Assembly (NCBI RefSeq): GCF_000429545.1
Contig: NZ_AUCB01000043.1
Location: 1-32,353 of the forward strand
Reading direction: 5' to 3'
Length of the DNA: 32,353 bases
Origin: Arenibacter certesii DSM 19833
Lineage (GTDB): Bacteria > Bacteroidota > Bacteroidia > Flavobacteriales > Flavobacteriaceae
Positions 8,915 to 31,860 of the stretch are shown piece after piece (positions within the stretch are counted from its first letter, which is position 1; every line of letters begins with the position of its first letter). Below the pieces are notes generated by a model that worked only from the letters and a program-made list of their open reading frames with translations, had not been told where the DNA came from and did no database searches. The position numbers and the translations under genes were made by a program.

Positions 8915-8920
8915 TTGATT

Positions 8921-9967
8921 ATGGATAGAAGAAGTTTTAATAAATTATTGCCTTATACTCTAGGTGTAACAATGTTTCCCTTTTCGACAAATGCAGGCAA
9001 TTTGAATCATTCGTTGGATAGTCACGGAATAATTGGACACGGAGATTTTCGATATAAAGTAGATACGCAATGGGGTGTGCAAGATTCTGGGAAAATACCT
9101 GTAAATGATTGTCATGAAATGGTACAGGATAAAAGGGGGAATTTAATTTTATTGACTAATGAAACGAAAAATAATGTATTAATTTATGATCGTTCGGGCA
9201 AAGTATTAAAAACATGGGGGACGGAATTTCCTGGTGCTCATGGACTTACTATTTCTCAGGAGGGAGAAGAAGAATTTCTGTTTATTACTGATCATGACCG
9301 CAATCAGGTTTTTAAAACAACACTAGATGGAAGAATTTTGATGACAATCAATTACCCACACGAGACTGGTAAATATGAGAAGAGAGAAAAATTTAGGCCT
9401 ACTGAGATTGCTGTTGCTCCAAATGGAGATTTTTATATTGCAGATGGCTATGGTGAACAATATATTCTTCATTATGATTATAAAGGAACGCTTTTAAATA
9501 TTTTTGGAGGCAGGGGAGATAGTGGACAGTTTTTCAACAATGCCCACGGGATTTGTTTAGATAATAGAAATAAAGATAATCCTACACTTTTGATTTCTGC
9601 TCGCGTACAGAATGCTTTAAAGCGGTTTACGCTGCAGGGTGATTATATTGAAACAATAAAGTTACCCGGTGCATTTATAAGTAGACCCGTGATAGATGAA
9701 GAGAATGTTTATACGGCAGTATTGGTTTCTAAAATGCCATGGAATTCTGAATCGGGATTTGTTTTAATTTTAGATAAGAATAATGAAGTGGTTTCGGCAC
9801 CTGGAGGTGGACATCCGAGCTATGAAAATGGGAATTTAAATAAATTAGTTCAAAAAGGTAATACCTTTAAACACCCACATGATGTCTGCATTGATGCCGA
9901 TAAGAATCTTTATATTCCTCAATGGTCTTCAGGAAAAACTTATCCGATAAAGCTCGAGCGTATTTAA
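8921..9967 (+). CDS. Exported NHL-repeat beta-propeller protein
   Basis: This is a protein of about 348 residues built from NHL/SMP-30-like propeller blades, seen in repeated segments such as GNLILLTNETKNNVLIYDRS, GLTISQ/EEFLFITDHDRNQVFK, EIAVAPNGDFYIADGY and HGICLDNRN. It ends with HPHDVCIDADKNLYIPQW. I prefer the second ATG (8921) over the one at 8915 because it puts DRRSFNKLLPYTLGVTMF, a twin-arginine-like export signal, at the very N-terminus. Proteins of this shape often bind substrates or act as lyases or lactonases (for example the PAL lyase and gluconolactonase folds), but no catalytic motif can be assigned here. It stands alone between a terminator and the VCBS gene 102 bases downstream, and it is transcribed in the same direction as the PUL. 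Confidence 0.85.
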   Translation: MDRRSFNKLLPYTLGVTMFPFSTNAGNLNHSLDSHGIIGHGDFRYKVDTQWGVQDSGKIPVNDCHEMVQDKRGNLILLTNETKNNVLIYDRSGKVLKTWGTEFPGAHGLTISQEGEEEFLFITDHDRNQVFKTTLDGRILMTINYPHETGKYEKREKFRPTEIAVAPNGDFYIADGYGEQYILHYDYKGTLLNIFGGRGDSGQFFNNAHGICLDNRNKDNPTLLISARVQNALKRFTLQGDYIETIKLPGAFISRPVIDEENVYTAVLVSKMPWNSESGFVLILDKNNEVVSAPGGGHPSYENGNLNKLVQKGNTFKHPHDVCIDADKNLYIPQWSSGKTYPIKLERI

Positions 9968-10069: not shown

Positions 10070-13000
10070 ATGAAACAGATAGAAAAAGCGTTGAAAATAT
10101 TCACTTTTCTTTTCTCCTCAGTTATATTGTTTCAATGTAAGAAAGAAGAGACAAGTTTATTTAAGCAAATTCATTCTGATCAAACCAATATCTCATTTAT
10201 TAATGAAGTCATTGAAACTGATGAACTTAATATAATGCAATATCAATATCTCTACAATGGAGGAGGTGTAGGAATAGGTGATTTTAACCAAGATGGATTA
10301 GCTGATATTTATGTTACAGGTAATACTGTAGAAAATAAACTTTATATTAATAAGGGAAATTTTATTTTCGAAGATGTTACTGCTGTGGCAGGGGTAGGAG
10401 GTAGACGAGGCTGGAAGACAGGAACTAGTATTGCAGATGTTAATGGTGATGGATTACTGGATATATATGTTTGTTATTCTGGGCTAGGAACAAATGACCT
10501 TAGGGCAAATCAGTTATTCATTAATAAAGGGAATAATAATGATGGGGTTCCAGTGTTTATAGATGAAGCGGTTGAATATGGGTTGGACGCCGAAGGAAGC
10601 TTTAGTACTCAAGCAGTTTTCTTTGATTATGATCTTGATGGAGATTTGGATATGTTTTTATTAAACCATGCAAACTCATATTATTCACCTTTCTTTAACA
10701 GTACTAAACTACGTAATACAAGGCATCCCTTTTTCGGAAATAGCCTATATCGTAATGATGACAATAATTTTGTTGAGGTTAGTGAAAGTGCCGGAATTTA
10801 TGGAGGAGGATTAAACTTTGGTTTGGGAGTGGCAATAAGTGATTTTAATCAAGATGGTTTTCCTGATATTTATGTTTCTAATGATTATGAGGAGCAAGAT
10901 TTTCTTTACCTAAATAATGGAGATGGAACATTTGTCGATGCTACTAAGATGGCATTTGGGCATATTTCTAAATTTTCAATGGGTAACGACGCAGCTGATA
11001 TAAATAATGATGGGTTAGTTGATTTAATAACAATGGATATGCTTCCGGAGGATAATTATAGGCAAAAACTATTGAAGGGTCCTGATGAATATGTTCGTTA
11101 TCAAATTGCTGTTGATAGTGGATATCACAAACAGCAGATGCGAAATATGCTACAGTTAAACCAAGGTATTGATCAGAATGGAGTGCCTAGATTCAGTGAA
11201 ATTGGTCAACTTGCAGGTATATCAAATACGGATTGGAGTTGGGCATCTTTGATTGCGGATTTTGATAACGACGGTTTAAAAGACATTTTTGTTACCAATG
11301 GCTATCTAAGAGATTATACAAATATGGATTTTTTAAATTTTGAAGCCAATCAGGCAGTTCAAAATGCAAGAGCTCATGGTGTTGAATTGCTAAGTGATAA
11401 GGGTAAAAATAAATACGCCAAGGCTATTTATGAGCTGGTAAATAAAATACCTTCAACTAAAATTCCAAACTATATATTTAAGAATCAAGATAACTATACA
11501 TTTAAAGATGTTACCAATAAATGGGGGCTTTCAATGCCTACGGTATCAACAGGCGCTGCATATGTTGATTTAGATAATGACGGGGATTTGGATTTAGTGA
11601 TAAGTAATACCAATTCCCCTATTGGCGTATTCAAAAACACTGTAGATCAAGAAGAAAATAATTTTGTCAGGATTAAATTAAGAGGCAGTGCTAAAAATAG
11701 CTTTGCAATAGGCGCAAAGGTTTGGTTGTATACGGATTCTTTGGTTCAATTTCTCGAGAACTACACGGCTAGAGGTTATCAATCATCTGTTGATCCTATT
11801 CTCAATTTTGGCATAGGGAAATCTAATAAAGCAAATCTTAAAATTCAATGGCCAGATGGGAGTGTTACCGTTGAAGAAAACATAAAGTTAAATACGCTAC
11901 TTGAATATGACCAAACAACATCTACTGCAATTAAACAGAGTAAAGATGATTCTTCTAGAAATAATATTTTCGAGGATTCAACGCAGCTATATGGACTTAA
12001 TTTTGTCCATAAAGAGAACAATTATGTTGATTTTAATGTGGATCGCCTAGCTTTAAAACAAAGTTCTAGGTCTGGGCCCAAGATGTCCGTTGCAGACGTT
12101 AATGGGGACGGAATTGATGACGTATTTATCGGTGGGGCATATGGGCAAATGGATCAACTTTTTTTGTCAAAACCAGATGGATCTTATATTCCTTCCAATG
12201 ATGAATGTTGGAAAATTAGTAAAGACTTTGAAACCACAGCTTCCGTATTCTTTGACGCAGATGGAGATGGGGATAAAGATTTATATGTTGTAAGCGGAGG
12301 AAGTGAAATTCCATTAGGTTCCCCTTATTTAAGAGACAGGCTTTATATCAATGATGGGAAAGGAAATTTTTATGCGGCACAGGAGAATGCTTTACCCCAA
12401 GCATTTTCAAACGGTAGCGTGGTTGCGGCTGGTGATTATGATGGGGATGGTAAAATAGATTTGTTTGTTGGTGGAGGAAGTGTGCCTGGGAATTATCCGA
12501 ATAATGCACCAGGTGGAATTTTAAGAAATGAAACAGATAAATTAACAGGAGAAGTCAAATTTAGTCTAGCAACAAATGAGATAAACCCAGAACTAAGACG
12601 ACCAGGGTTAATTACTGATGCAATTTGGGCAGATATAAATAATGATTCTTTGTTAGATCTTATATTGGTTGGAGAATGGATGCCAATCCGCGTTTTTATT
12701 AACGAAAAGGGAAAGTTGGTAGAAAAAACAAATGAACTAGGACTTTCCAAAACTAATGGATTATGGCAAAGTATTGAAGTTGCTGACATGGATGGAGATG
12801 GTGACTTGGATATAATAGTTGGGAATATGGGATTGAATCTACCTTTTCAAGTTTCAGAAGAAGAGCCGCTTGAGGCATATATTGGTGATTTTGGTGAACA
12901 TGGAACACTAGCTTCAATTTACAGTAGTTATGTTCAAGGAAAGCGCTATCCCATTGCATCGTTAAGTGAGATGCACGATGCTTTTCCTAGATTAAGAAAG

Positions 13001-13483
13001 AAGTTTTTAAAGCATTCCCACTATGCCTCGGCAACTTTAGAGGATGTTTTTTCGCCTGATCAACTTAATAAGTCTACGCACTTGAGGGTTAATCAACTAG
13101 AAAGTGTTTATCTAGAAAATTTGAATAGTAGTTTTAATATTCATCTATTACCAATGAAGGCGCAATTCTCATCTACTCAGGGAATTATAGCTAAAGATTT
13201 TACGGGAGATGATATAAAAGATATTCTCTTAGTTGGTAATTTTTATCCATTCAGAGTGCAACATGGACCTATCGATGCTGGTAAAGGGCTATTGTTGGAA
13301 GGCGATGGGAAAGGTGACTTCAATGTATTTGAAAGAGATGAATTTGGTGTTTGGATTGAAGGGGATGTAAGGGATTTAAAATTAATGAATGGATATAATA
13401 CAACGCATATCATTATATCCAAAAATAATGATAGCATACAATCTTTTAAGGTGGCTATACCAAATAAAGTTTATTCAGATTAA
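10070..13483 (+). CDS. Large VCBS/FG-GAP repeat lipoprotein with ASPIC/UnbV domain
   Basis: This is a 1137-residue exported protein. The N-terminus (KALKIFTFLFSSVILFQC) is a lipoprotein-type signal with the cysteine at residue 23. The body consists of FG-GAP/VCBS propeller repeats with about 13 calcium-binding loops of the form DxNxDGxxD, for example DFNQDGLAD, DVNGDGLLD, DYDLDGDLD, DLDNDGDLD, DADGDGDKD and DMDGDGDLD. Between two propeller blocks, at about residues 530-600, lies an ASPIC/UnbV domain (NNFVRIKLRG, GAKVWLY, ARGYQSSVDPILNFGIG, IQWPDGS). Such proteins are common next to SusC/SusD pairs in marine Bacteroidota and are thought to bind glycans or to stabilise surface assemblies, but their exact job is unknown. 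The reading frame is intact. Confidence 0.93.
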   Translation: MKQIEKALKIFTFLFSSVILFQCKKEETSLFKQIHSDQTNISFINEVIETDELNIMQYQYLYNGGGVGIGDFNQDGLADIYVTGNTVENKLYINKGNFIFEDVTAVAGVGGRRGWKTGTSIADVNGDGLLDIYVCYSGLGTNDLRANQLFINKGNNNDGVPVFIDEAVEYGLDAEGSFSTQAVFFDYDLDGDLDMFLLNHANSYYSPFFNSTKLRNTRHPFFGNSLYRNDDNNFVEVSESAGIYGGGLNFGLGVAISDFNQDGFPDIYVSNDYEEQDFLYLNNGDGTFVDATKMAFGHISKFSMGNDAADINNDGLVDLITMDMLPEDNYRQKLLKGPDEYVRYQIAVDSGYHKQQMRNMLQLNQGIDQNGVPRFSEIGQLAGISNTDWSWASLIADFDNDGLKDIFVTNGYLRDYTNMDFLNFEANQAVQNARAHGVELLSDKGKNKYAKAIYELVNKIPSTKIPNYIFKNQDNYTFKDVTNKWGLSMPTVSTGAAYVDLDNDGDLDLVISNTNSPIGVFKNTVDQEENNFVRIKLRGSAKNSFAIGAKVWLYTDSLVQFLENYTARGYQSSVDPILNFGIGKSNKANLKIQWPDGSVTVEENIKLNTLLEYDQTTSTAIKQSKDDSSRNNIFEDSTQLYGLNFVHKENNYVDFNVDRLALKQSSRSGPKMSVADVNGDGIDDVFIGGAYGQMDQLFLSKPDGSYIPSNDECWKISKDFETTASVFFDADGDGDKDLYVVSGGSEIPLGSPYLRDRLYINDGKGNFYAAQENALPQAFSNGSVVAAGDYDGDGKIDLFVGGGSVPGNYPNNAPGGILRNETDKLTGEVKFSLATNEINPELRRPGLITDAIWADINNDSLLDLILVGEWMPIRVFINEKGKLVEKTNELGLSKTNGLWQSIEVADMDGDGDLDIIVGNMGLNLPFQVSEEEPLEAYIGDFGEHGTLASIYSSYVQGKRYPIASLSEMHDAFPRLRKKFLKHSHYASATLEDVFSPDQLNKSTHLRVNQLESVYLENLNSSFNIHLLPMKAQFSSTQGIIAKDFTGDDIKDILLVGNFYPFRVQHGPIDAGKGLLLEGDGKGDFNVFERDEFGVWIEGDVRDLKLMNGYNTTHIIISKNNDSIQSFKVAIPNKVYSD

Positions 13484-14138: not shown

Positions 14139-16877
14139 GTGAAAAGAAGAATTATTACAACATCGTTTTTTGTCATTATAATTGGCATTGTAATTTTACT
14201 AGTTGACTATTTGAAACCTGATCCGTTAATAGATTTTAGCACCCAAGTAAAACCTATTCTCAATAAAAACTGTATCGCATGCCACGGTGGGGTAAAAAAA
14301 AGTGGTGGGTTTAGTCTATTGTTCGAGGAAGAGGCCTTTGCGGACACCGAGTCTGGCCATCCCGCGATTATTCCTGGTAATGCTGCCAAAAGCTCATTCA
14401 TACAACTATTAAAGGAGGATGATCCTGAATTACGCATGCCTTACCAAAAGGCAAGGTTATCGGAAGAAGAAATAGAATTATTGACTCAATGGGTAAATCA
14501 AGGTGCCAAATGGGGCGAACATTGGGCTTACAGTCTTCCAGATAAAGTAAACATCCCTGAAACAGTACAGGTAGCTGGGATTTCTTCCGAGAACACCAAA
14601 GGTTTTATAAAAAATGAAATTGACTACTTTATACTAAGAGGGCTTGATAATAACGACTTGGAACCTAGCTCGCCTGCAGAGCCGAACGTAATTTCCAGAA
14701 GGCTTTCCATGGATATAACGGGGCTTCCTATAAATACGGATCTATACGAAAGTTTTAATTCTGGCAATATTTCTTATGAGAATATGGTAGACGATCTCTT
14801 GTCTAGAAATTCTTATGGGGAAAAGTGGGCAAGTTGGTGGCTAGATCACGCCCGTTATGCAGATTCTAAAGGGTATGAGAAGGACATGGGGAGATCCATG
14901 TGGGAATATCGGGATTGGGTAATAAGAGCATTAAATAAGGATATGCCATTTGATCAATTTACCGTTGAGCAACTTGCAGGGGATTTACTGCCAAACCCCT
15001 CGGTAGACCAACTTATCGCTACCGCTTTCCATAGAAACACTATGAACAACGATGAAGGCGGAACGGATGACGAAGAATTTAGGGTTGCCGCTGTTATTGA
15101 TAGAGTTAATACCACTTTTGAAGTATGGCAAAGTACCACTATTGGATGCGTGCAATGTCATAGTCATACTTATGACCCCTTCAAGCATGAAGAGTTTTAT
15201 AACCTGATGGCTTTCTTTAACAATACAAGGGATGAGGATACTACTGGAGATGAACCCAATCTAAAATTTTATGACAAAGAGCAGGAAATCAAATTATCTA
15301 AGGTTTATGATTGGATATTAAAGAATAATAATAAAGAGGTTGCTGAGGCTTACAATAATTTCATGAAATATTTAGAGCCTGTATACCATGCCCATTTAGC
15401 GGAGAATTATACGAATGGTAGTCTTGCGGGCTCCCAGTCCATTGGACTTCGCGACAACGGTTCATGTTATATAAAAGATGTTTATACACAGGGTGCAAAC
15501 TATATTTATCTAAGATATTCTTCCGGAGTGGATGCTAGCACAATAACAATACGAAAGGATAATCCTGAGGGAGAAATTCTGGCAAGATTTAAGACTAATA
15601 AAACCCAAGGAAGGGTTATCCATAAATTTCCATTTAAGAAAATAAATGAGAAAACGACTTTATATATAGAGGCGGAGAACCCTACGATCTCAGCTAAAAC
15701 CCCTACAAGTTATATTTCATGGATTGCCTTTCTTCCTGAGGTTAAAGGAAGTGAATCTCCAGGTTATTCTGAAATTGATAAGGAGTTTATGGAACTGATA
15801 AACACCAAAACTCCTACTTTACCAATTTTAGTGGAAAATCCTGATTTTCAAAAAAGAACTACTCGATTTTTTGAAAGGGGAAGTTGGCTAAGCCAAACAG
15901 ATACCATAGAACCGGGTACTCCTCATGTGTTGAATGATTGGAAGAGTGAATGGCCAAAAAATAGGTTGGGATTATCTAAATGGCTTGTTAGCAAGGAAAA
16001 TCCGCTTACTGCAAGAACCTTGGTAAATAGAGTGTGGCATCAGCTATTTGGAAGAGGCATTGTAGCATCCTTGGAGGACATGGGATCCCAATCGGATGCA
16101 CCTTCCCATCCTGAATTATTGGATTGGTTAGCTTTAAGATTTATGAATGAGCACGAATGGAGTATCAAATCTTTAGTTAAAGAAATTGTGATGTCTGGGA
16201 CCTATCGTCAAAGTTCTATGAACAACGCGATTTTATATCAAAAGGACCCTGAAAACAAACTGTATGCCCGAGGACCAAGGACAAGGTTGTCTGCGGAACA
16301 GATTCGAGACCAGGCCTTGGCGGTATCAGGATTATTGAGTGACAAGATGTATGGTCCGAGTGTTATGCCTCCCCAACCAGAGGGTGTTTGGCAAACTGTT
16401 TACAGCGGGGAATATTGGGTGGAAAGTAAGGGGGAGGATAAATACCGAAGAGCTGTATATACCTATTTAAAACGAACAAGCCCCTATCCTTCTATTGTTA
16501 CATTTGATGGGAGTAGCCGTGAAGTATCTACAGTTAGAAGGACAGTGACTAATACCCCTTTACAAGCTTTGGTTACACTTAATGATCCGGTATATTTGGA
16601 AGCTGCATATTTTTTGGCAAAATATATGACGAAGTTTGATGATCCGGATAATGCCATTGCTTCAGGCTATTATAAGGCCTTAATGAGCGAAATTGATAAA
16701 AATAAACTAATTTCCTTAAAAACACTCTATACAAATTCAATCATTGAATTTGAACAGCAAGCCGAATCTATAAGGGAGTTTCTACCCGTTGAATCGGAGG
16801 TTGATGCCAATTTAGCAGCACTAACCGTTGTGGCTAATGCCATAATGAATTTAGATGAATTTTTAACAAAATCATAG
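14139..16877 (+). CDS. PSCyt1-DUF1549-DUF1553 cytochrome-type protein
   Basis: This is a 912-residue exported protein of the type abundant in Planctomycetes. It starts at a GTG (the first in-frame start before MKRRIITTSFFVIIIGIVIL, a signal or anchor helix). The N-terminal PSCyt1 domain (about 30-130) has a heme c motif CIACH at 45-49 and a possible methionine ligand at M100 (LRMPY). The DUF1549 (PSCyt2) domain follows (about 155-365) with HARYADSKGYEKD, HRNTMNNDEGGTDDEEFR and a second CxxCH motif, CVQCH at 337-341 (CVQCHSHTYDPF). An insert at about 440-545 (DNGSCYIKDVYTQGANYIYL, TLYIEAENP) resembles a CBM6-like sugar-binding module. DUF1553 (about 590-870) carries RTLVNRVWHQLFGRGIV, RLSAEQIRDQALAVSGLL and RRTVTNTPLQALVTLNDPVY. 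It is 2 bases from the DUF1501 gene, its usual partner. The function of the pair is not established; redox or hydrolytic roles have been proposed. Confidence 0.92.
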   Translation: MKRRIITTSFFVIIIGIVILLVDYLKPDPLIDFSTQVKPILNKNCIACHGGVKKSGGFSLLFEEEAFADTESGHPAIIPGNAAKSSFIQLLKEDDPELRMPYQKARLSEEEIELLTQWVNQGAKWGEHWAYSLPDKVNIPETVQVAGISSENTKGFIKNEIDYFILRGLDNNDLEPSSPAEPNVISRRLSMDITGLPINTDLYESFNSGNISYENMVDDLLSRNSYGEKWASWWLDHARYADSKGYEKDMGRSMWEYRDWVIRALNKDMPFDQFTVEQLAGDLLPNPSVDQLIATAFHRNTMNNDEGGTDDEEFRVAAVIDRVNTTFEVWQSTTIGCVQCHSHTYDPFKHEEFYNLMAFFNNTRDEDTTGDEPNLKFYDKEQEIKLSKVYDWILKNNNKEVAEAYNNFMKYLEPVYHAHLAENYTNGSLAGSQSIGLRDNGSCYIKDVYTQGANYIYLRYSSGVDASTITIRKDNPEGEILARFKTNKTQGRVIHKFPFKKINEKTTLYIEAENPTISAKTPTSYISWIAFLPEVKGSESPGYSEIDKEFMELINTKTPTLPILVENPDFQKRTTRFFERGSWLSQTDTIEPGTPHVLNDWKSEWPKNRLGLSKWLVSKENPLTARTLVNRVWHQLFGRGIVASLEDMGSQSDAPSHPELLDWLALRFMNEHEWSIKSLVKEIVMSGTYRQSSMNNAILYQKDPENKLYARGPRTRLSAEQIRDQALAVSGLLSDKMYGPSVMPPQPEGVWQTVYSGEYWVESKGEDKYRRAVYTYLKRTSPYPSIVTFDGSSREVSTVRRTVTNTPLQALVTLNDPVYLEAAYFLAKYMTKFDDPDNAIASGYYKALMSEIDKNKLISLKTLYTNSIIEFEQQAESIREFLPVESEVDANLAALTVVANAIMNLDEFLTKS

Positions 16878-16879
16878 CA

Positions 16880-18388
16880 ATGAACAGTTTAGACCGACTT
16901 ATAAAAGAAAAGATAGAAAGAGATTTAGAAGCCAAAACTAGGAGGCATTTTATAAAGACTTGTGTTACTGGAATGGGCGGGGTGGCCTTAGGATCCTTAT
17001 TTATGTCCTGTGGTTCTTTTGGAAGTAACAAAGGGAATGGAAAGATACCTCTTAGCGATAGGGATGTCAATCCAATGGCTTCCTTGGCACCTCCCTACCC
17101 GGCGAAGGTTAAATCAGTGATCTATCTCCATATGGCGGGAGCACCATCGCAACTTGAAATGTTTGATTATAAGCCTGCACTTCAAAAATTAGATGGTCAA
17201 TTAACCCCTCAATCTCTACTAGAGGGAAAAAAATTCGCATTTATCAAGGGAACACCAAAATTATTGGGTCCCCAAGCTAAATTTAAGCAAGAAGGTGAGT
17301 CTGGGAATTGGGTATCAAATTTTTTACCTCATTTTTCAAAGGTGGTCGATGAGGTAGCCTTTTTAAAAGCAGTGAATACTGATCAATTTAATCATGGTCC
17401 AGCCCAGTTATTTATGCAAACTGGAAGCCCAAGATTAGGCAGACCAAGTATAGGTTCTTGGGTTACGTATGGTCTAGGATCAGAAAATCAGAACTTACCA
17501 GGATTTGTGGTATTGACTTCTGGGGGAAAAACTCCAGATGCTGGAAAAAGTATATGGGGAAGTGGTTTCTTGCCTTCGGTATACCAAGGAGTTCAATGCC
17601 GATCCAAGGGAGATCCTGTTTTATATATAGATGATCCAAAGGGAATATCTAGGAACCTTAAACAAAGTACTATTGAAGCTATCAATCAGATTAATAAGGA
17701 GGAATTCAATAAATATTCTGATCCTGAGATTTTAACAAGAATCAATCAATATGAAATGGCATATAGAATGCAAACCGCAGTTCCGGAATTAATGAACATT
17801 AATGACGAACCAGAACATATAAAGGAAATGTACGGAGTAAAACCAGGAAAAGAATCTTTTGCTAATAATTGCTTGTTGGCTAGAAAATTGGTAGAGGATG
17901 GAGTTCGTTTTGTACAATTATATGATTGGGGTTGGGATAGCCATGGTGATAGCCATGCTAATGCAATTGATTTAGGTCTTAGAAATAAATGTACGGAAAT
18001 AGATAGGCCAATGTCTGCGTTGCTTTTAGATCTTAAGCAAAGGGGGTTGTTGGAGGAGACTCTAGTAGTTTGGGGCGGTGAATTTGGTAGAACGCCCATG
18101 CAGGAAAATAGAGAAGGCCAAGAAATGGCTTTTAAAGGAAGAGATCACCACGGAGACGCCTTTACTATGTGGATGGCAGGTGGCGGTATTAAAAAAGGTG
18201 CTAGTTTTGGTGTTACCGATGAAATAGGGTATTCTGCGATAGAAGGAAAAGTCTCCGTACATGATGTGCATGCAACGATATTGCACCTTCTTGGATTTAA
18301 TCATGAGCAATTCACATTCGATTTCCAAGGAAGACCATTCCGCCTAACAGATGTTGAAGGACATGTTATTAAAGAGATTCTGGCATAG
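16880..18388 (+). CDS. DUF1501-family exported protein (alkaline phosphatase/sulfatase-like fold)
   Basis: This is a 502-residue protein. The N-terminus has a textbook twin-arginine signal, TRRHFIKTCVTGMGG, followed by a hydrophobic stretch and SLFMSC. The cysteine at residue 44 may be lipidated after Tat export, so the protein folds, possibly with cofactors, in the cytoplasm. The DUF1501 hallmarks are present: VIYLHMAGAPSQLEMFDYKP near the start of the domain, NHGPAQLFMQTGSPRLGRPS, RFVQLYDWGWDSHGD and VVWGGEFGRTPMQE followed by GRDHHGDAFTMWMAGGG. DUF1501 belongs to the metal-dependent alkaline phosphatase superfamily in fold. It follows the DUF1549/DUF1553 gene after 2 bases, which implies translational coupling and a joint function. 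Confidence 0.93.
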   Translation: MNSLDRLIKEKIERDLEAKTRRHFIKTCVTGMGGVALGSLFMSCGSFGSNKGNGKIPLSDRDVNPMASLAPPYPAKVKSVIYLHMAGAPSQLEMFDYKPALQKLDGQLTPQSLLEGKKFAFIKGTPKLLGPQAKFKQEGESGNWVSNFLPHFSKVVDEVAFLKAVNTDQFNHGPAQLFMQTGSPRLGRPSIGSWVTYGLGSENQNLPGFVVLTSGGKTPDAGKSIWGSGFLPSVYQGVQCRSKGDPVLYIDDPKGISRNLKQSTIEAINQINKEEFNKYSDPEILTRINQYEMAYRMQTAVPELMNINDEPEHIKEMYGVKPGKESFANNCLLARKLVEDGVRFVQLYDWGWDSHGDSHANAIDLGLRNKCTEIDRPMSALLLDLKQRGLLEETLVVWGGEFGRTPMQENREGQEMAFKGRDHHGDAFTMWMAGGGIKKGASFGVTDEIGYSAIEGKVSVHDVHATILHLLGFNHEQFTFDFQGRPFRLTDVEGHVIKEILA

Positions 18389-18420
18389 AAAAATAACAGA
18401 ACCAATCCAAAATTTAACTT

Positions 18421-19302
18421 ATGAGATCACTTCCGTCACTATTTTTGATCATATTCGGAGCAATCTTTCTCTCCCATGGCCAGGAAAAATTATTATTTTT
18501 TCAAACTGATTGGGGTAACCAAATCTCAATAGACGAATTTTGTGAGCGTGCAAAGTCATCAGGCTATGATGGTATAGAGACTTGGTTTCCATGGGACGTT
18601 AAAAAGCAAGAGGAGTTAAAGTCTGCTTTGAAGAAACATGATTTATTGGTAATTTTTCTTCATGGAACAAACAAGGGGCTACCGTTTAAGCAAGGTTTGA
18701 AAAAATTTAAAGAAGAATTAAATACCATTTTGGAATGGAAGACCATTTTGGTCAATTGTCATACTGCAAGTGATTTTTATTCAAAAAAACAGAATAGCGA
18801 TATTATTAACGCGGCGAATCGCTTAAGTGTTGAACATAACGTTCCGGTCTATCATGAGACGCATAGGGGACGGTTTAGTTATAGTTTGCCAGAGACAAAT
18901 CTATATCTATCCTCCATACCAGAATTAAAACTTACCTTGGATATCAGCCATTGGATGGTAGTTCATGAGTCCCTATTAGAAGGGAAGGATCATTTACTCA
19001 AGACCGTGAAGAATAGATCTAACCATATCCATGCTAGTGTTGGCCACGCGGAAGGCCCCCAAGTTAATGATCCCAAAGCTCCAGAATGGGAACGGGCAAT
19101 GGAAAGGCATTTGGAAATATGGGAGGAGGTAATTAAAAAGGGATGGGAGAAGCATCAAGGTGTGTTTACGGTAACGACTGAGTTTGGCCCTGCAGATTAT
19201 ATGCCTACCCTGCCGTATACAAAAGCTCCTTTATCGGATCAATGGCGGGCCAATGTTTTTATTATGGAAAGTTTAAAAGAACGATTAAAACTTAACAAAT
19301 AG
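18421..19302 (+). CDS. Exported TIM-barrel sugar isomerase/epimerase-like protein (AP endonuclease 2 fold)
   Basis: This is a 293-residue protein with the xylose isomerase-like TIM barrel. A signal peptide (LPSLFLIIFGAIFLSHGQ) shows that it is secreted, unlike most members of this fold. Typical divalent metal ligands are visible in order: E146 in YHETHRGR, D174 and H177 in LTLDISHW, H204 in NHIHASVGH and E254 in VTTEFGP. Early barrel strands are IDEFCERAKSSGYDGIETWF. Members of this fold isomerise or epimerise keto- and aldo-sugars or open sugar rings. The gene sits 32 bases after the DUF1501 gene and 7 bases before the cytochrome/LRR gene, so it is part of the same operon. The exact substrate is unknown. 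Confidence 0.87.
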   Translation: MRSLPSLFLIIFGAIFLSHGQEKLLFFQTDWGNQISIDEFCERAKSSGYDGIETWFPWDVKKQEELKSALKKHDLLVIFLHGTNKGLPFKQGLKKFKEELNTILEWKTILVNCHTASDFYSKKQNSDIINAANRLSVEHNVPVYHETHRGRFSYSLPETNLYLSSIPELKLTLDISHWMVVHESLLEGKDHLLKTVKNRSNHIHASVGHAEGPQVNDPKAPEWERAMERHLEIWEEVIKKGWEKHQGVFTVTTEFGPADYMPTLPYTKAPLSDQWRANVFIMESLKERLKLNK

Positions 19303-19309
19303 TACATAA

Positions 19310-20701
19310 ATGGAGGTTATTCAGCAACTATTGGGGCGCTTGCATCCCATTGTAGTCCACTTGCCCATCGGTTTTATAGTTACAGGGCTTTTGCTTCAAT
19401 GGTTTGACCGAAAAAATAATGAATGGGGCAAAATCATCGCCATAATATTTCAGTGGGGATTTATATCGGCAGCTTTAGCCTGTATAAGTGGTTATTTATT
19501 ATACATCGGAGAAGGGTATTCCTTTGATACGGTAAAGTTTCATTTATGGCTAGGGGTAGCCACTGCCGTTTTTTCCTTACTGATGTTCTTGCGACTAGTA
19601 AATCCCTCGAAAGTCGATTTCTTAAAACGATTACCAGTAGTGTTAATATCATTTTCTTTATTTTTTATAATATCAATAACCGGACATTTAGGTGGTAATA
19701 TTACTCATGGTTCCGATTACTTGATAGAGCCTTTACCAACCAGTATAAAATCCTTTTTGGGGATAGGGCCAGAAAATCATGAAATTCCAATTCTTGATGA
19801 AAAGAATTGGGAAGATGCTGTTCTCTATGCAGATCTTGTACAACCTATATTGAATACTAAATGTGTTAGCTGTCACAATTCAAAAAAAGACAGAGGCGAT
19901 TTGCAATTACACGAAGGACAGGGAATCCTTAACGGTGGCGAAAACGGTCTGGTAATAGAGGCCAATGATCCCGAAAACAGTTCTTTGTACGCTAGGCTGG
20001 TATTACCACTAGATCATGATGACCATATGCCTCCTAAAGATAAGACACAACTATCCAAAGATGAGATAAATATTATAAAAATTTGGATTGCCAATAGCAA
20101 CTCGTTTGATAAAAAAATTGGAGAACTTGGATTAAAAAAGGAATTATTTACCGCTTTTTTCCAAAAAACTAATGAGAGTATTTATCCTGAAATAGAAGTT
20201 GCTTCGGCATCAATAGATAGTATAGAAGTATTAAAGGCCAGAGGACTCCATGTTGAACCATTAAGTGACGGGAATAATTTCCTCAAAGTTTCCTGTATAA
20301 ATAGTCCAAAATTTAGTGATAATGATGTTAGGTTGCTCTCACCAATATTTGATCAAACGGTACATTTAGATCTAGGCAAAACGGAGATCACAGATGAAGT
20401 TTTTGAACTTCTTTCGCAATTTTCAAACCTGACAGTTCTCAAACTAAACAATACAACAATAACGGGAAAAAATATTGAAAAGCTTAAAGGTCTTGAGCAC
20501 TTAAAAATTTTAAACTTGACCCATACGAATTTTGATGAAGAGCAATTTTCCATCCTATCGAGCTTAGATCAATTGCAGACGGTTTATATGTATAACACAT
20601 CCATATCAAAAAACGCTAAAGACAAAATCATAGGAACAACAGAGTATAACTTTGGGGGATATGAACTTCCAATTAGTGCTACTGATTCTATAGTATATTA
20701 A
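19310..20701 (+). CDS. Four-helix membrane module fused to PSCyt1 cytochrome and leucine-rich repeats
   Basis: This is a 463-residue fusion protein. Residues 1-135 form a four-helix membrane module that resembles DUF2231, starting with LHPIVVHLPIGFIV. Histidines occur at 12, 17, 78, 126 and 133, at or near helix ends. A PSCyt1 c-type cytochrome domain follows at about 170-265, with the heme motif CVSCH at 185-189 and a likely methionine ligand at M240 (DHMPPKDK). The last part (about 320-445) consists of short leucine-rich repeats (LDLGKTEITDEVFELLSQF, LTVLKLNNTTITG, LKILNLTHTNFDEEQF). The domain order suggests a membrane-anchored electron carrier facing the periplasm. It is 7 bases from the TIM-barrel gene and likely ends the operon that starts with the DUF1553 gene; a 182-base gap follows. 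Confidence 0.88.
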   Translation: MEVIQQLLGRLHPIVVHLPIGFIVTGLLLQWFDRKNNEWGKIIAIIFQWGFISAALACISGYLLYIGEGYSFDTVKFHLWLGVATAVFSLLMFLRLVNPSKVDFLKRLPVVLISFSLFFIISITGHLGGNITHGSDYLIEPLPTSIKSFLGIGPENHEIPILDEKNWEDAVLYADLVQPILNTKCVSCHNSKKDRGDLQLHEGQGILNGGENGLVIEANDPENSSLYARLVLPLDHDDHMPPKDKTQLSKDEINIIKIWIANSNSFDKKIGELGLKKELFTAFFQKTNESIYPEIEVASASIDSIEVLKARGLHVEPLSDGNNFLKVSCINSPKFSDNDVRLLSPIFDQTVHLDLGKTEITDEVFELLSQFSNLTVLKLNNTTITGKNIEKLKGLEHLKILNLTHTNFDEEQFSILSSLDQLQTVYMYNTSISKNAKDKIIGTTEYNFGGYELPISATDSIVY

Positions 20702-20883: not shown

Positions 20884-22443
20884 ATGACTCTATCTGAATT
20901 AGATTTTTATGTTTTTATCGGATATTTTTCATTTGTTCTAATAATTGGCTTTGGAATAACCTTCTTTATTAAAAAAAAGCAATCATCGAAAGATTATTTT
21001 TTTGCTGGAAACAGTTTGCCTTGGTGGGTCATTGGATCGTCTATTATCGCGGCTAATATTTCTGCAGAACAGTTTATTGGAATGACAGGATCAGGTTATG
21101 TTGTGGGATTGGGGATTGCGGCATATGAATGGTTAGGGGCGATAGGCTTACTGTTAGTTGCGAAATATTTTTTACCAATTTATTTACAGAATGGAATTTA
21201 TACAATGCCAGGATTCTTGGAAAAACGTTATGATTCTAGGCTAAGAAGTTGTTTAGCTGTTTTTTGGTTATTGGTATATTGGTTTGTAAATTTATCTTCC
21301 GTCCTTTATTTAGGTGCTTTGGTACTAAAGGGATTCTTGGGATTAAGCTTTTTACATTGGATTTTAATTTTAGCAGTTTTATCGGGTCTCTATTCCGTAG
21401 TTGGCGGATTAAAAGCAGTGGCTTATACCGATGTTGTACAAGTTATCTTTTTGATATTAGGAGGTTTAACAACTACTTATTTCGTTTTACAGGCAATAAG
21501 TAACTCTAATGATATTTTTCTTGGACTAGAATTGCTAATTGAAAAAACTCCAGAGAAATTTGATCTAATTCTTGATAAATCTAACCCAAATTATAAATAT
21601 CTACCTGGTTTTAGTGTGATCCTTGGAGGGTTATGGGTCGCTAATATTGCTTATTTTGGTTGTAACCAATATATTATACAACGGTCGCTAGCTGCCAAAA
21701 ATATTAGAGAAGCACAACATGGGATGGCTTTTGCTGCTTTTTTAAAAATATTTATACCTCTCATAGTGGTTTTACCAGGTATAGCTGCATTTGCTCTGAA
21801 TGCAGAAATAGGAAAACCAGATGAGGCTTATCCCTGGTTATTGAGCAACTATGTTCCTTCGGGATTTAAAGGCCTGGCTTTTGCAGCGCTTGTAGCAGCT
21901 ATTGTATCTTCTCTTAGCTCCATGGTAACAAGTGCATCGACCATATTTACTTTCGATATTTTTCAACCGATTTTTAATAGTGAAATCAGTGATAGTAAAT
22001 TGGTAGTTACGGGTCGGATTATAGGTGTAATCTCACTAGTTATTGCTGTCATAGTTGCGCCTATGTTGACTACCCTTGATCAGGCTTTCCAATATATTCA
22101 AGATTTTACAGGAATGGTAACGCCTGGTATTGTAGTAGTGTTTTTATTTGGATTATTTTGGAAAAAGGCGAATGCTACTGCCGCTTTATGGACGATTATT
22201 TTGACCATACCAGTATCTATTACCTTAGATCTGCTAATCAATGAGTTGCCTTTTTTAGATCGGATGGGTTTTGCTTTTTTAACTCTTTCATTCATCTTAA
22301 TCTGTATCTCAATTTTACATAAAGAGGATTGTAATGATTTAATAAAAATTGACCGAGGAATGTATAAGACGAGCCTCTTATTTAATGTTTCAGTCTTGTT
22401 TATAAGTGGTGTTCTTGGTGTGATTTACTATAATTTTTGGTAA
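20884..22443 (+). CDS. Sodium/solute symporter (SSS family, SGLT-like)
   Basis: This is a 519-residue inner membrane transporter that uses the sodium gradient to import a sugar or other small solute. About 13-14 hydrophobic helices are spread over the whole length. The SSS signatures are clear: SKDYFFAGNSLPWWVIGSS followed by IIAANISAEQFIGMTGSGY in the first helices, YSVVGGLKAVAYTDVVQVI in the middle, then GCNQYIIQRSLAAKNIREAQ, and LAFAALVAAIVSSLSSMVTS for the sodium-site helix 8. It ends with a short cytoplasmic tail and a last helix (LLFNVSVLFISGVLGVIYYN). The RraA-like gene follows after 18 bases, so uptake and first steps of catabolism are probably co-expressed. Confidence 0.93.
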   Translation: MTLSELDFYVFIGYFSFVLIIGFGITFFIKKKQSSKDYFFAGNSLPWWVIGSSIIAANISAEQFIGMTGSGYVVGLGIAAYEWLGAIGLLLVAKYFLPIYLQNGIYTMPGFLEKRYDSRLRSCLAVFWLLVYWFVNLSSVLYLGALVLKGFLGLSFLHWILILAVLSGLYSVVGGLKAVAYTDVVQVIFLILGGLTTTYFVLQAISNSNDIFLGLELLIEKTPEKFDLILDKSNPNYKYLPGFSVILGGLWVANIAYFGCNQYIIQRSLAAKNIREAQHGMAFAAFLKIFIPLIVVLPGIAAFALNAEIGKPDEAYPWLLSNYVPSGFKGLAFAALVAAIVSSLSSMVTSASTIFTFDIFQPIFNSEISDSKLVVTGRIIGVISLVIAVIVAPMLTTLDQAFQYIQDFTGMVTPGIVVVFLFGLFWKKANATAALWTIILTIPVSITLDLLINELPFLDRMGFAFLTLSFILICISILHKEDCNDLIKIDRGMYKTSLLFNVSVLFISGVLGVIYYNFW

Positions 22444-22461: not shown

Positions 22462-23157
22462 ATGAAGAAATTTTGGAAAAACGACGAGGACTTATTTAAA
22501 CATGCAAGGAAGGAACTTTTCACCGCAGTCATTGGCGACGCTATGGATAAAATGAAATTGTTCCATCAATTTTTACCTCCAAGAATACAGCCGCTTAAAA
22601 ATGACATGTTTTTGATAGGCAGGGCAATGCCAGTTTTGGAAGCAGATACATTTGAAGAATTAAGTATAGGGGGGCAAAATAAATTAATGGCTAAACCCTT
22701 TGGGCTAATGTTGGAAGCTTTGGACGATTTAAAAAAGAATGAAGTTTATATTTGTACGGGATCTTCTCCTAGATATGCCTTAATAGGGGAACTAATGATG
22801 ACTAGAGCAATGAAGCTGGGTGCTGCAGGAGCCGTTGCCAACGGATATTCCAGAGATACTTTTGGTCTATTGGATTTAGGGTTTCCTGTATTCTCTTATG
22901 GTAATTATGCTCAAGATCAGGGACCTCGTGGCAAAGTCATAGACTTTAGAGTTCCTATAGAAATCGAGGGCGTTCGTATTAGCCCAGGCGATATTATAGT
23001 AGGGGATGTAGATGGTGTATGTGTAGTGCCAAAGGTCTTTGAAGATAAGATTTTTCTTAGGGCTTTTGAAAAGGCCAGAGAAGAAAAAACAGTATTAAAA
23101 GCTATTCAAGATGGAATGAGCGCTGTAGAGGCGTGGGAGAAATACCAAATTATGTAA
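22462..23157 (+). CDS. RraA-family protein (aldolase/decarboxylase-like)
   Basis: This is a 231-residue cytoplasmic protein of the RraA fold, which includes 4-hydroxy-4-methyl-2-oxoglutarate aldolase, oxaloacetate decarboxylase and the RNase E regulator RraA. The active-site region is clear: ALIGELMMTRAMKLGAAGAV followed by NGYSRD, with R131 (substrate carboxylate) and D132 (metal). The preceding position, usually Asp in the DGxxRD motif, is Asn (N127). The end of the fold, GDIIVGDVDGVCVVP, is also typical. In the setting of a symporter, an enolase-superfamily dehydratase and an SDR, cleavage or decarboxylation of a 2-keto acid is more likely than an RNase-regulatory role. The substrate is unknown. 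Confidence 0.88.
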   Translation: MKKFWKNDEDLFKHARKELFTAVIGDAMDKMKLFHQFLPPRIQPLKNDMFLIGRAMPVLEADTFEELSIGGQNKLMAKPFGLMLEALDDLKKNEVYICTGSSPRYALIGELMMTRAMKLGAAGAVANGYSRDTFGLLDLGFPVFSYGNYAQDQGPRGKVIDFRVPIEIEGVRISPGDIIVGDVDGVCVVPKVFEDKIFLRAFEKAREEKTVLKAIQDGMSAVEAWEKYQIM

Positions 23158-23236: not shown

Positions 23237-26188
23237 ATGATTTTTAAAAATTATACATCATATATAATGCACAAGTCAACTCTTTGTGTGGTGATTTTTT
23301 TAATAATATTTTCCCAAAATATAGTGTCTCAAGAAAATACTGATAACATACTAAGGGATGCGGGGATTGAAGTCCCTAGGTTGTCACCTATGCCAGAAGA
23401 GGTGCAGGGAATAAAAAATCCAATAATTTCACTTAACGGAACTTGGGAGGTTACTATTGATGATAAAAAGACTATGCCCGTTGAAGTTCCTGGTGAACTG
23501 TTAATGCAGGGCTATGAATTAAATTCAGGAGAAACGGCCGTTTATCAAACTAATATAGTTATCCCGAAGGAATGGATCAATAAACGAATTTTTATCAGAT
23601 TCGATGCGGTTAGTTCGTACGCACAGGTAAAAGTAAACGGGAAGCCTGTGGTTGAACATGAAGGTGGTTTTGTGCCATTTGAGGCGGAAATAACAAATCA
23701 GATTAAACCCGACGAAAACATATTGCAAGTTGCCGTTCAGGCGCATACAATAAGTGATATATTAGGTTGCACCTCACAATATGCCGCCCATACAGTAGCA
23801 GGTATATTACGAAAGGTAAGGTTATTTGTTCTTCCCGAGTCTAATATTGCAGATATGACTGTTAATACTGTATTTGATAAAAAATTTCATAATGCTAAAT
23901 TGAATATTGAAACGAGTGTTGTCGCCTTAACAAGCCATGCCTCTCAGATTCAAGTACGCTACACCTTACTGGATTCTAATGGAAAAAAACAGGCTTACGA
24001 AATATCTCCTGTAAGGATGGGAAATAAAGGTAAAAAGAATTTATCTTCCATTGTTTCTATTGATGTTAATAAACCAAATCATTGGACTCCAGAGGGGCCA
24101 TATTTGTACCGATTGCAAACCGAACTTGTCAAAAATGGAAAGTCTCTGCAGAAAAATATTCAAAATATTGGCTTTAGACAAATCGACATTAATAATGGTG
24201 AGGTTTTTGTAAATGGAAAGCCAATTAAACTACACGGCGTAAATCGTCATGCGATTCATCCGCTTTCTGGTAGGTCCTTGACTCCTGAATTAGAACGATT
24301 AGATGCGAAACTTTTTAAGGAAGCAAATTGTAATTTCATTAGAACTTCACACTATCCTCCATCAGAGGAGTTTTTAGAAGCTGCTGATGAATTGGGTTTA
24401 TTTGTGGAGAGTGAAGCATCTCTTACTTGGATAGAGCATCATGCTTCTCCTATTTGGGGCCTCTGGGATTATAAGGATCCAAAATTTTTGCCTTATATGT
24501 TAATGGCGAATATCGAAAATATCCAGGCCAATAAAAAACACCCATCAGTCATTATTTGGTCCATTGCAAACGAATCACGTTGGAGTCCTCTTTGGGATAA
24601 GGTAAAACAGGTCGTTAAGCAAATGGATCCGAGTAGACCAAATGCTTTCCATGATCAATGTTGGGGTGGTTTTAATAATGCTGGGAGTACTGCTGATATT
24701 GCAAATTATCATTACCCTGGTATAAATGGCCCTATGGCTACTGATACAATGAGCAGACCAACTTTATTTGGGGAATATGCTCATTTATCTACTTATAATA
24801 GAAGGGAGCTTTTAACGGATCCTGGAGTACGTGACGCATATAATCAACCATTGGTTTCATTTTACGATTCTATTTATAACCATCGTAATAATTTAGGTGG
24901 TGCAATTTGGAGTGGTATAGATGATACTTTTCATTTGCCTGATGGAAGAATAGTTGGTTATGGACCGTGGGGGCCCATAGATGGATGGAGACGACCTAAA
25001 CCAGAGTATTTTGGAATGAAAAAAGCCTACTCGCCTATAAAGATAAAGAGTAGTAGCTTGAATAAGGGAAGATTACAGTTTGTAATTGAAAATCGTTATG
25101 ATTTCACCTCTTTAAAAGACATAAAAATAATAGCCGAAGTAAATGGTAAGGAGTATAATTTGGAAAGTAAGATCCCACCTAGGCAACAGGGTGTACTAAC
25201 CATACCTACAAAAACAAAAGTTAAAACCTTAAAACTGAAATTTTTTGACCCCTTAGGCTTTATAGCTGAAGAGGAGTTTTATAACTTTAATGAAGAACCT
25301 GCATTGCCTACTAAAAAGGACCGATCCCTTTCCTACATAGAAAACGGAAATTCCTATTTAATTCGTCAAGGGGAAATTTCGTACAGGATAGACAAGTTGA
25401 CCGGGACTATAAATTCCGTCGATAAAAACAATACCTCAATACTTATGAAGGGTCCATTATTCTCCATAGTCCCCATGAACCGTGAGGATGGAGGAAAGAA
25501 TAACATTGCTGGGGAAACCTATCAGCGCAATATTCAACCCTTGCAAAATTTCCCTTGGTACGTTAAATATGCTGCAAATATTACTATCAATGAAGCCCCT
25601 GATTTCATTTCAATGAATGTTGATATTTCATTTAAAGAAGGAAAGGGAAATATGAAATATAATTTTTATTCCGATGGTAGATTGGAAGTTCTATATAATA
25701 TTACCGAAATAAACAAGGAAGTTTCGCCTTATCAATATGGAACTGTAATGGTACTTCCCAAATCCTTTGATCAGTTAACGTGGAAGAGAGAAGGTGATTT
25801 TAGTTTATATCCAGATGATCATATAGGAAGGAATAATGGATCTGCAAAATTAAATGCCATTCAAACATCGGGAGTGGAGCTTTGGAGGAAACAACCACTC
25901 AGTTTATGGAAAGACGATGCAAATGAAATGGGTAGTAATGATTTTAGATCTACCAAGCGAAATATTTTAAGCGCATCATTGTCCAATAATAGTGGGACTA
26001 AAGTAACCGTTTTATCCAATGGTAAACAAGCCTCCAGGACATGGCTACAAGAGGAGTATATACATTGGCTTATTGCAGATTACTCCAATAATGGTTCCGA
26101 GCCATTTTATGCTACACCTCATAATGAAGGTAGGATATCTATTAAAGATGATCATTTGACTGGTGGAGTTACGCTAATTTTCGAATAA
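23237..26188 (+). CDS. Glycoside hydrolase family 2, secreted
   Basis: This is a 983-residue GH2 retaining exo-glycosidase (beta-galactosidase, beta-glucuronidase or beta-mannosidase type). A better start may be the ATG at 23270, which gives a clean signal peptide (MHKSTLCVVIFLIIFSQ). The sugar-binding jelly-roll domain (about 45-195) begins with SLNGTWEV, an Ig-like domain follows, and the TIM barrel starts near KPIKLHGVNRHAIHP. The acid/base Glu is E446 in IIWSIANESRW and the nucleophile is E513 in TLFGEYAHL. The C-terminal 370 residues hold further beta-domains, including one like the beta-galactosidase small chain (WKREGDFSLYPDDHIGRN). It is a clear paralogue of the GH2 at 28328. The sequence does not fix the sugar specificity. 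Confidence 0.93.
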   Translation: MIFKNYTSYIMHKSTLCVVIFLIIFSQNIVSQENTDNILRDAGIEVPRLSPMPEEVQGIKNPIISLNGTWEVTIDDKKTMPVEVPGELLMQGYELNSGETAVYQTNIVIPKEWINKRIFIRFDAVSSYAQVKVNGKPVVEHEGGFVPFEAEITNQIKPDENILQVAVQAHTISDILGCTSQYAAHTVAGILRKVRLFVLPESNIADMTVNTVFDKKFHNAKLNIETSVVALTSHASQIQVRYTLLDSNGKKQAYEISPVRMGNKGKKNLSSIVSIDVNKPNHWTPEGPYLYRLQTELVKNGKSLQKNIQNIGFRQIDINNGEVFVNGKPIKLHGVNRHAIHPLSGRSLTPELERLDAKLFKEANCNFIRTSHYPPSEEFLEAADELGLFVESEASLTWIEHHASPIWGLWDYKDPKFLPYMLMANIENIQANKKHPSVIIWSIANESRWSPLWDKVKQVVKQMDPSRPNAFHDQCWGGFNNAGSTADIANYHYPGINGPMATDTMSRPTLFGEYAHLSTYNRRELLTDPGVRDAYNQPLVSFYDSIYNHRNNLGGAIWSGIDDTFHLPDGRIVGYGPWGPIDGWRRPKPEYFGMKKAYSPIKIKSSSLNKGRLQFVIENRYDFTSLKDIKIIAEVNGKEYNLESKIPPRQQGVLTIPTKTKVKTLKLKFFDPLGFIAEEEFYNFNEEPALPTKKDRSLSYIENGNSYLIRQGEISYRIDKLTGTINSVDKNNTSILMKGPLFSIVPMNREDGGKNNIAGETYQRNIQPLQNFPWYVKYAANITINEAPDFISMNVDISFKEGKGNMKYNFYSDGRLEVLYNITEINKEVSPYQYGTVMVLPKSFDQLTWKREGDFSLYPDDHIGRNNGSAKLNAIQTSGVELWRKQPLSLWKDDANEMGSNDFRSTKRNILSASLSNNSGTKVTVLSNGKQASRTWLQEEYIHWLIADYSNNGSEPFYATPHNEGRISIKDDHLTGGVTLIFE

Positions 26189-31545: not shown

Positions 31546-31860
31546 TTAGATCATAGCGTCTTTATTGTGGATTTTTTGCTGAAACTTTTCTCTTAACAGT
31601 TGCATATCTGCACTCACTTTTAAATCTAATATTTTAGCGTAGTGTTGCGTGGTTTTTAAAGATTTATGACCTAACATTTTACTTACAGTTTCAATAGGGA
31701 CGCCATTGGATAGTGTGACGGTGGTAGCAAATGTTTGTCTGGCCAAATGGAAGGTAAGATTTTTAGAAATCCCACATAAATCTGCAATTTCCTTAATATA
31801 AGCGTTCATTTTCTGATTCGATAAGACTGGAAGTAGGGATATTCGGGAGTAGGCCGATTT
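31546..31860 (-). pseudogene. Tyrosine recombinase (phage/CTn integrase), C-terminal fragment
   Basis: The frame, open from about 31860, contains SLLPVLSNQKMNAYIKEIAD, then FHLARQTFATTVTL with the HxxR motif, and LGHKSLKTTQHYAKI with the second His and the tyrosine nucleophile. These are the last catalytic residues of tyrosine recombinases typical of Bacteroidetes conjugative transposons. The DNA-binding N-terminal half and the first catalytic Arg and Lys are missing. Recognisable homology reaches upstream of the ATG at 31809 to about 31845 and is then replaced by IS21-type end sequence. The gene was therefore cut by the IS and is not a naturally short protein. Confidence 0.88.

Follow-up and report, generated by a model that had tools for sequence, protein, structure and literature searches.

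What does a compact set of cytochrome and DUF1501 genes do inside a polysaccharide utilization locus (PUL)? This question is raised by a 32,353-nucleotide stretch of the 4.99-Mb draft genome of Arenibacter certesii DSM 19833 (hereafter the window, meaning the whole stretch that was analyzed), in which four genes, confirmed at the positions listed in Table 1 with intergenic gaps of 2, 32, and 7 bases, encode a PSCyt1-DUF1549-DUF1553 protein (hereafter the PSD1 protein), a DUF1501 protein, an exported TIM-barrel protein, and a membrane cytochrome. The explanation that we favor, while granting it somewhat less than an even chance, is that these genes form an autonomous respiratory module of the Bacteroidota, which would act at the outer face of the inner membrane and would be linked to glycans at this locus, the sugar itself being oxidized in the cytosol. 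As part of this explanation, a standalone copy of the module would have been duplicated in this genome and one of the copies placed in a PUL with enzymes of glycoside hydrolase family 2 (GH2).

The PSD1 protein, which starts with GTG and carries an N-terminal membrane anchor, unites PSCyt1 (E 1.9e-12), DUF1549 (E 3.9e-72), and DUF1553 (E 2.7e-92) in one chain according to Pfam. Its alignment (window protein plus 44 of 54 representatives) revealed two invariant heme c motifs and an invariant M100, which is likely the sixth ligand of the first site. The PSCyt1 profile of this protein matched FoxE over residues 44 to 124 and, more weakly, hydrazine synthase alpha (E 0.002). The domain inserted between PSCyt2 and PSD1 has the fold of carbohydrate-binding module family 6 (CBM6); by sequence, Pfam CBM_6 was not listed at E 1e-3, and the PSD1 profile reached CBM6 chains with E values of 0.004 to 0.08. 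This domain is variable, with 3 of 121 alignment columns conserved at 90%, and CBM6-like and LamG domains occupy an equivalent place in PSD1 proteins. The structure match lists of the PSD1 protein were filled by the CBM6-like domain, so that PSCyt2 and PSD1 proper were barely covered, and single-sequence searches found no relative of the PSD1 or DUF1501 protein in the PDB at 0.1.

The fourth protein combines DUF2231 and PSCyt1 with weak matches to leucine-rich repeats (LRR; Pfam), and its alignment (window protein plus 20 of 54 representatives) shows five invariant histidines in the membrane part. Since these accompany a heme c site, this protein may feed electrons to quinone. The heme c motifs that the original prediction had placed in two proteins are thus present as three sites, two in the PSD1 protein and one in the cytochrome. 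In the module on contig 3 of the same genome, the cytochrome (L102:5230-7287) bears additional CHB_HEX_C and F5/8 type C domains.

The DUF1501 protein (Pfam E 4.8e-152), whose gene starts 2 bases after the PSD1 gene, has an N-terminal leader whose sequence reads as a twin-arginine signal with a lipobox-like cysteine. By a simple pattern, the leaders of 19 of 20 representatives have RR closely followed by F, and the remaining one has RK. The predicted model falls within the alkaline-phosphatase/sulfatase fold. When the DUF1501 alignment (window protein plus 19 of 19 representatives) was compared with a sulfatase alignment built from 14 of 30 matches, only residues 370 to 489 were aligned, and E401 stands there in place of Asp. 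Beyond the reach of this profile alignment, by eye, an invariant N171-H172 occupies the place where the sulfatase C/S-x-P-x-R motif is expected, and the motif was not seen there.

The TIM-barrel protein matches the xylose-isomerase-like AP_endonuc_2 profile (E 1.1e-11). A Glu/Asp/His/Glu metal tetrad is the mark of this family, and all 25 aligned proteins (window, 23 of 36 representatives, and one later locus) keep the putative ligands E146, D174, H204, and E254. The metal-site residues claimed for this protein therefore hold, sugar isomerization itself being a prediction. Its leader is of the Sec type in the window and, by eye, of the twin-arginine translocation (Tat) type in several homologs; its profile had no relative in the PDB at E 1e-4. 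Altogether, the four genes form one operon, and their products are all predicted to be extracytoplasmic, as had been proposed.

Carbohydrate redox chemistry is our best guess for the function of the module. In the mechanism that we propose, the PSD1-DUF1501 pair would take electrons from a glycan-derived substrate bound by the CBM6-like domain, and these electrons would pass through the two c hemes of the PSD1 protein, cross the fourth protein by way of its heme c and its putative b hemes, and reach quinone, after which the TIM-barrel protein would rearrange or eliminate the keto-type product. The PUL-resident copy would most likely condition the glycan or an oligosaccharide outside the cytoplasm. 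The sugar freed by the GH2 enzymes would enter unoxidized through the SGLT-type symporter, to be oxidized in the cytosol by the short-chain dehydrogenase/reductase (SDR), dehydrated by the MR_MLE enzyme, and cleaved by the RraA-like aldolase.

Modules were counted by walking downstream from each PSD1 gene until the cytochrome, another gene, a strand change, or a gap of more than 400 bases was reached. In 80 named loci (the best 80 of 81, found with window-protein patterns and thus representing close relatives only), 83 modules were counted: 52 with the order PSD1-DUF1501-TIM-cytochrome, 12 PSD1-DUF1501-cytochrome, and 19 that are shorter, cut, or of the NHL type. Since 52 of the 83 share exactly the window's order, this order is more than chance. 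The search for it that had been suggested across Bacteroidota and Planctomycetes succeeded in the former, while neither the third slot nor the DUF2231 cytochrome was seen in Rhodopirellula L088, the only such locus read. Twenty more regions, for the most part from the same genus (L104 and L106 repeat L009 and L018), gave 21 modules, 10 with TIM and 1 with NHL; another 40 regions gave 47 modules, 3 with TIM and 12 with NHL. Over all 151 modules, DUF1501 directly follows PSD1 in 138, TIM is found in 66, NHL in 14, and both in none. The third slot is therefore swappable, being filled by a TIM protein, an NHL propeller, or nothing. In L141, the NHL gene is located after the cytochrome.

The window holds a TIM gene in the module and also an NHL gene farther upstream in the PUL (8915-9967). 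Its product shares 56% identity with the protein that fills the third slot of the contig 3 module and 58% with its counterpart in L080, so that this gene may be part of the same system as the module; against this membership, no such NHL gene was seen in the PULs of Arenibacter sp. 6A1 and Arenibacter nanhaiticus. The distribution of the module is patchy, with PSD1 in 6 of 118 sampled genomes of the phylum, the A. certesii genome included. In six loci of Emticicia and kin, PSD1 has no DUF1501 gene next to it and is accompanied by a different TIM protein bearing a Tat-like leader and, in most cases, by an aldo/keto reductase (L045:13123-15092 by Pfam; L046, L048, L050, L073, and L083 by cluster; aldo/keto reductase where the contig reaches). 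Several genomes of the genus carry tandems in which another PSD1 gene or module comes directly after a C68-type PSD1 module (L144-L147, L149, L150, L155, and L157).

The 80 named loci comprise one Rhodopirellula, two Balneolaceae, one "uncultured bacterium," and otherwise Bacteroidota names, and in many of them the flanks are housekeeping genes, as judged by eye. In A. certesii itself, contig 34 (L103) carries the same four genes in the same order, with identities to the window copy of 72, 86, 65, and 58%. This contig 34 copy is flanked by a lysS-like gene and a DASS transporter, in a non-PUL setting. A module copy of at least 70% identity is present in 17 of 18 genomes of the genus. In a joined PSD1+DUF1501 tree, the window copy groups with its counterparts in A. 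sp. 6A1, A. nanhaiticus, and genome G004 (clade support 100/100), and this clade stands beside the other copies of the genus, that of contig 34 included. Transfer from a planctomycete into this genome was rejected as a candidate, the named loci, all of close relatives, being nearly all Bacteroidota and the window copy nesting among copies of its own genus. The idea of a planctomycete-type module built into a PUL thus gives way to a Bacteroidota operon whose window copy is paralogous to a standalone one in the same genome. The PULs of 6A1 and A. nanhaiticus hold SusC and SusD 73 to 78% identical to those of the window, together with SDR, MR_MLE, GH2, and the module. No SusC, SusD, or GH2 match was found in about 31 kb around the G004 copy, so that the PUL label requires two changes on the tree, which could be either a single entry with a later loss or two entries, a single origin being possible. 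A separate pairing occurs in Sphingobacterium endophyticum, where a further member of the operon family lies 305 bases after GH2-RraA-MR_MLE-SDR on the same strand. A DASS-type (Na_sulph_symp) gene follows the standalone module (L103:4595-6025), and matches to this family occur in 13 of the 20 regions of the genus and in 6 of the 80 named loci.

The surroundings described in the original prediction were confirmed by Pfam, namely SusC/SusD, an SSF symporter, an RraA-like protein, two GH2 enzymes, an MR_MLE dehydratase, and an SDR; with a SusC/SusD pair, glycoside hydrolases, and a regulator in the window, the locus is a PUL (Table 1). The AraC regulator is 69% identical in A. sp. 6A1 and A. nanhaiticus and 52 to 55% at the cassettes of G593, G631, and G023. 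Upstream of the module (13484-14138), 11 promoter-like sites were found against 6.6 expected (standard deviation 2.4), with no terminator and no match to a Bacteroidetes-type promoter pattern; an Rfam search gave no match. Outside the PUL, an N-acetylmuramoyl-L-alanine amidase (Pfam Amidase_3; 1923-2561) seems split over two reading frames, and the window ends show what look like remnants of an IS3-type transposase, the end of a tyrosine integrase, and an IstB-like protein at 372-647, 31546-31809, and 32093-32353 (open reading frames, by eye).

Table 1. Features of the A. certesii window (positions from its first letter)
Feature	Position	Strand	Basis or remark
AraC-type regulator of the PUL	2851..3723	-	Pfam
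SusC-type receptor	3844..6900	+	77-78% identity in A. sp. 6A1 / A. nanhaiticus PULs
SusD-type lipoprotein	6911..8566	+	73-75% identity in A. sp. 6A1 / A. nanhaiticus PULs
Exported NHL beta-propeller	8915..9967	+	
FG-GAP/UnbV_ASPIC lipoprotein	10070..13483	+	Homologs with SusC/SusD also in module-free PULs
PSD1 protein, PSCyt1-PSCyt2(DUF1549)-[CBM6-like]-PSD1(DUF1553), 912 aa	14139..16877	+	Pfam
Heme c motif 1 of PSD1 protein, C45-C48-H49	14271..14285	+	Invariant in 45/45 representatives
Heme c motif 2 of PSD1 protein, C337-C340-H341, then invariant H343	15147..15161	+	Invariant in 45/45 representatives
CBM6-like beta-sandwich, residues 414-534, between PSCyt2 and PSD1	15378..15740	+	
DUF1501 protein	16880..18388	+	Pfam and predicted model
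Exported xylose-isomerase-like TIM barrel	18421..19302	+	Pfam AP_endonuc_2
Membrane cytochrome, DUF2231 + PSCyt1 + LRR-like tail	19310..20701	+	Pfam
Heme c motif of membrane cytochrome, C185-C188-H189	19862..19876	+	Invariant in 21/21; M240 also invariant
SGLT-type Na+/sugar symporter (SSF)	20884..22443	+	vSGLT 2xq2, 498 bits
RraA-like aldolase	22462..23157	+	Family match
GH2 enzyme a	23237..26188	+	Leader judged by eye
MR_MLE sugar-acid dehydratase	26305..27465	+	Nearest NCBIfam models gluconate/galactonate dehydratase, all below cut-offs
SDR, candidate cytosolic aldose dehydrogenase	27474..28259	+	
GH2 enzyme b	28328..31300	+	Lipoprotein leader judged by eye

Where the sugar is oxidized is the point on which our explanation departs most from the sequence of events first envisaged, i.e., oxidation in the periplasm and only then import. 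At a cut-off of E 1e-140, close dehydratase homologs were found in 2 of 395 phylum genomes, 3 of 18 genus genomes, 5 of 9 genomes of genus g2, and 5 of 397 family genomes; these overlapping samples give 11 loci, 3 of them with the module, and S. endophyticum, found via the module, is the twelfth. Eight of the 12 loci lack an adjacent module (at least 18 kb read), i.e., five of g2 and those of G593, G631, and G023, the last having a standalone module about 21 kb from the cassette. In 7 of these 8, the cassette includes an SMP-30 lactonase (by Pfam for one, by similarity for the rest). The window symporter aligns to vSGLT (2xq2) over residues 3 to 519 and keeps most substrate-site positions, a few near the site being different. 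Because the importer is SGLT-like and the module-free loci are mostly equipped with a lactonase, the route can run in the cytosol, and its simplest reading would be SGLT-type import, oxidation by the SDR, lactone opening, dehydration, and aldol cleavage. This weakens the claim of oxidation before import, which stays alive because no lactonase was found in any of the four module-bearing loci, the A. certesii genome having been searched within the window. The rival explanation built on this claim, in which the module oxidizes the GH2-freed aldose to an aldonate in the periplasm for import to the dehydratase, with the SDR acting later or elsewhere, seems unlikely to us. The presence of a sugar-acid dehydratase and an RraA-like aldolase agrees with it, and a lactonase missing where the module is present would fit an aldonate made outside, the module making the lactonase unneeded; this pattern is suggestive only, since it reflects about two independent gains among few and related loci, one of them (S. 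endophyticum) found via the module itself. It is also countered by the sugar-type site of the symporter, by a Sugar_tr gene in the PUL locus of A. sp. 6A1, and by G631 and G023, which hold the same SSF (76 to 77% identical) and SDR (71 to 73% identical) with no adjacent module. The A. nanhaiticus dehydratase gene (L203 / L018:20022-20933) has one in-frame stop.

The missing lactonase is not the only point weighing against our explanation. Co-occurrence with SusC/SusD and sugar genes, a test named beforehand, was not found in general: 40 module regions of 20 kb (picked from lists, not random) were compared with control regions placed at an offset from them, in most cases within the same contig, of which 39 existed and one had PSD1, DUF1501, and cytochrome matches. 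With neighbor families detected by iterated profiles from one or two seeds each (the 80 named loci having no matched control), SusC occurred in 9/40 versus 12/39 and SusD in 7/40 versus 6/39 regions. The other families gave GH2 in 2 versus 0, sulfatase in 6 versus 6, Gfo/Idh/MocA-like in 8 versus 5, ASPIC in 3 versus 2, and AraC in 15 versus 9, hence no enrichment of GH2 or sulfatase in this comparison. A Pfam survey of 92 of 192 neighbors, hand-picked as nearest on each side, showed no dominant sugar family among the top 25 of 143 families, the commonest being the DASS transporter (5), followed by a mixture (3 GH95, 2 GH2, 2 Sugar_tr, and 2 SusD). Given the housekeeping flanks and the lack of SusC/SusD enrichment, what ties the module to sugars is the CBM-type domain together with a small number of loci. 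Moreover, 44 of the 151 modules are PSD1-DUF1501-cytochrome and thus do without TIM, the DUF1501 model is middling (pLDDT 69, Foldseek TM-scores of only about 0.3), and no FAD (GMC), PQQ, or Mo/molybdopterin cofactor domain was listed in the four proteins by Pfam at E 1e-3. Another rival, which we also regard as unlikely, is that the module serves envelope redox chemistry in general, has nothing to do with sugars, and is in this PUL incidentally. In its favor, standalone copies sit among lysS, hemL, maf, ppx, and cox (by eye) and beside tRNA synthetase and aminotransferase families, SusC/SusD are not enriched, and nearest neighbors are diverse; against it, PSD1 proteins have CBM6-like and LamG domains at an equivalent place, and the module has come to lie next to a catabolic cassette of one kind (GH2/dehydratase/SDR) on two separate occasions, in Arenibacter and in S. 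endophyticum. The carbohydrate link is supported by the domain and these cassettes and was not found as a general enrichment. Near the modules of L109, L111, and L066, with a GH2 or sugar-transporter-like gene, lies a similar-looking protein of about 1100 aa, presumably DUF5107-like. That DUF1501 would be a hydrolase, i.e., an esterase of the phosphodiesterase or sulfatase type that takes off a substituent while the cytochromes serve another step or regulation, is consistent with its fold and appears very unlikely in view of N171-H172 at the place of the sulfatase motif and the equal sulfatase counts; it would also leave the close pairing with a protein of two heme sites unexplained. Least probable to us is an outward electron flow, in which quinol would drive the hemes to activate oxygen or reduce the substrate, so that the module would be no dehydrogenase but an oxygenase or a reductase. 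The membrane histidine pattern is compatible with both directions, and the PSCyt1 profile matches hydrazine synthase alpha; however, FoxE, the better match, oxidizes its donor, and Pfam showed no oxygenase family in any of the four proteins.

The module may be compared with known periplasmic sugar dehydrogenases linked to cytochrome c, such as gluconate 2-dehydrogenase, glucoside 3-dehydrogenase, and PQQ glucose dehydrogenase. The shared logic could be oxidation outside with electrons passed to heme c and quinone, whereas the four proteins have no GMC/FAD or PQQ domain. Closer relatives are the PSCyt2-PSD1/DUF1501 pairs of Planctomycetes and Verrucomicrobia, which have the same domain architecture and gene pair as the window; in Rhodopirellula europaea, DUF1501 immediately follows 34 of 40 PSD1 genes. 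The window module adds to this pair the TIM/NHL slot and the DUF2231 cytochrome. According to PMC2754498, the PSD1 domain and the PSC2 domain each occur 41 times in Rhodopirellula baltica. He et al. (2017; PMC5615132) describe, in the passages concerned, PSCyt proteins with CBM-type domains, CBM_6 among them, and PSCyt2 and PSCyt3 genes usually adjoining one of two unknown gene families; action on mono- or oligomers is suggested there and the function given as unknown. A DUF1501 genomic module in PVC bacteria is cited by PMC4452313 and PMC4960237, and PSCyt1 serves only as a cytochrome label where PMC11495043 mentions it. In Proteobacteria, twin-arginine DUF1501 proteins paired with DUF1800 lie beside chitin synthase genes (PMC5122149); according to the relevant part of that article, they share with the window the twin-arginine DUF1501 and one fixed partner, with a sugar epimerase gene nearby, and differ by the DUF1800 partner and by showing no PSCyt cytochrome. 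A literature search pairing DUF1501 with DUF1553 found nothing, from which we do not claim absence from print.

What is new here is the setting of the PSD1-DUF1501 pair, itself known and unexplained, in a compact operon of the Bacteroidota that also encodes a likely exit for electrons and a third protein that can be exchanged, and that was recruited at this locus to a PUL. In a bolder form, which we consider doubtful, the module would be a new quinone-linked carbohydrate-oxidizing complex, in which a non-hydrolytic DUF1501 metal protein and the two-heme, CBM-bearing PSD1 protein would form the substrate site, the DUF2231 protein with its b and c hemes the exit, and an exchangeable TIM or NHL subunit would set the fate of the product, PULs gaining duplicates of standalone copies. 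The location in a PUL is by itself no proof of periplasmic sugar oxidation. While a planctomycete genome may carry about forty PSD1/PSCyt2 copies, the Bacteroidota have the system reduced to one four-gene operon, its hosts are genera with cultured strains, and a few species carry the module in one PUL, related PULs having none. With a single operon, cultured genera, and module-free PUL relatives, the old question of what these proteins do thus becomes testable by clean deletion.

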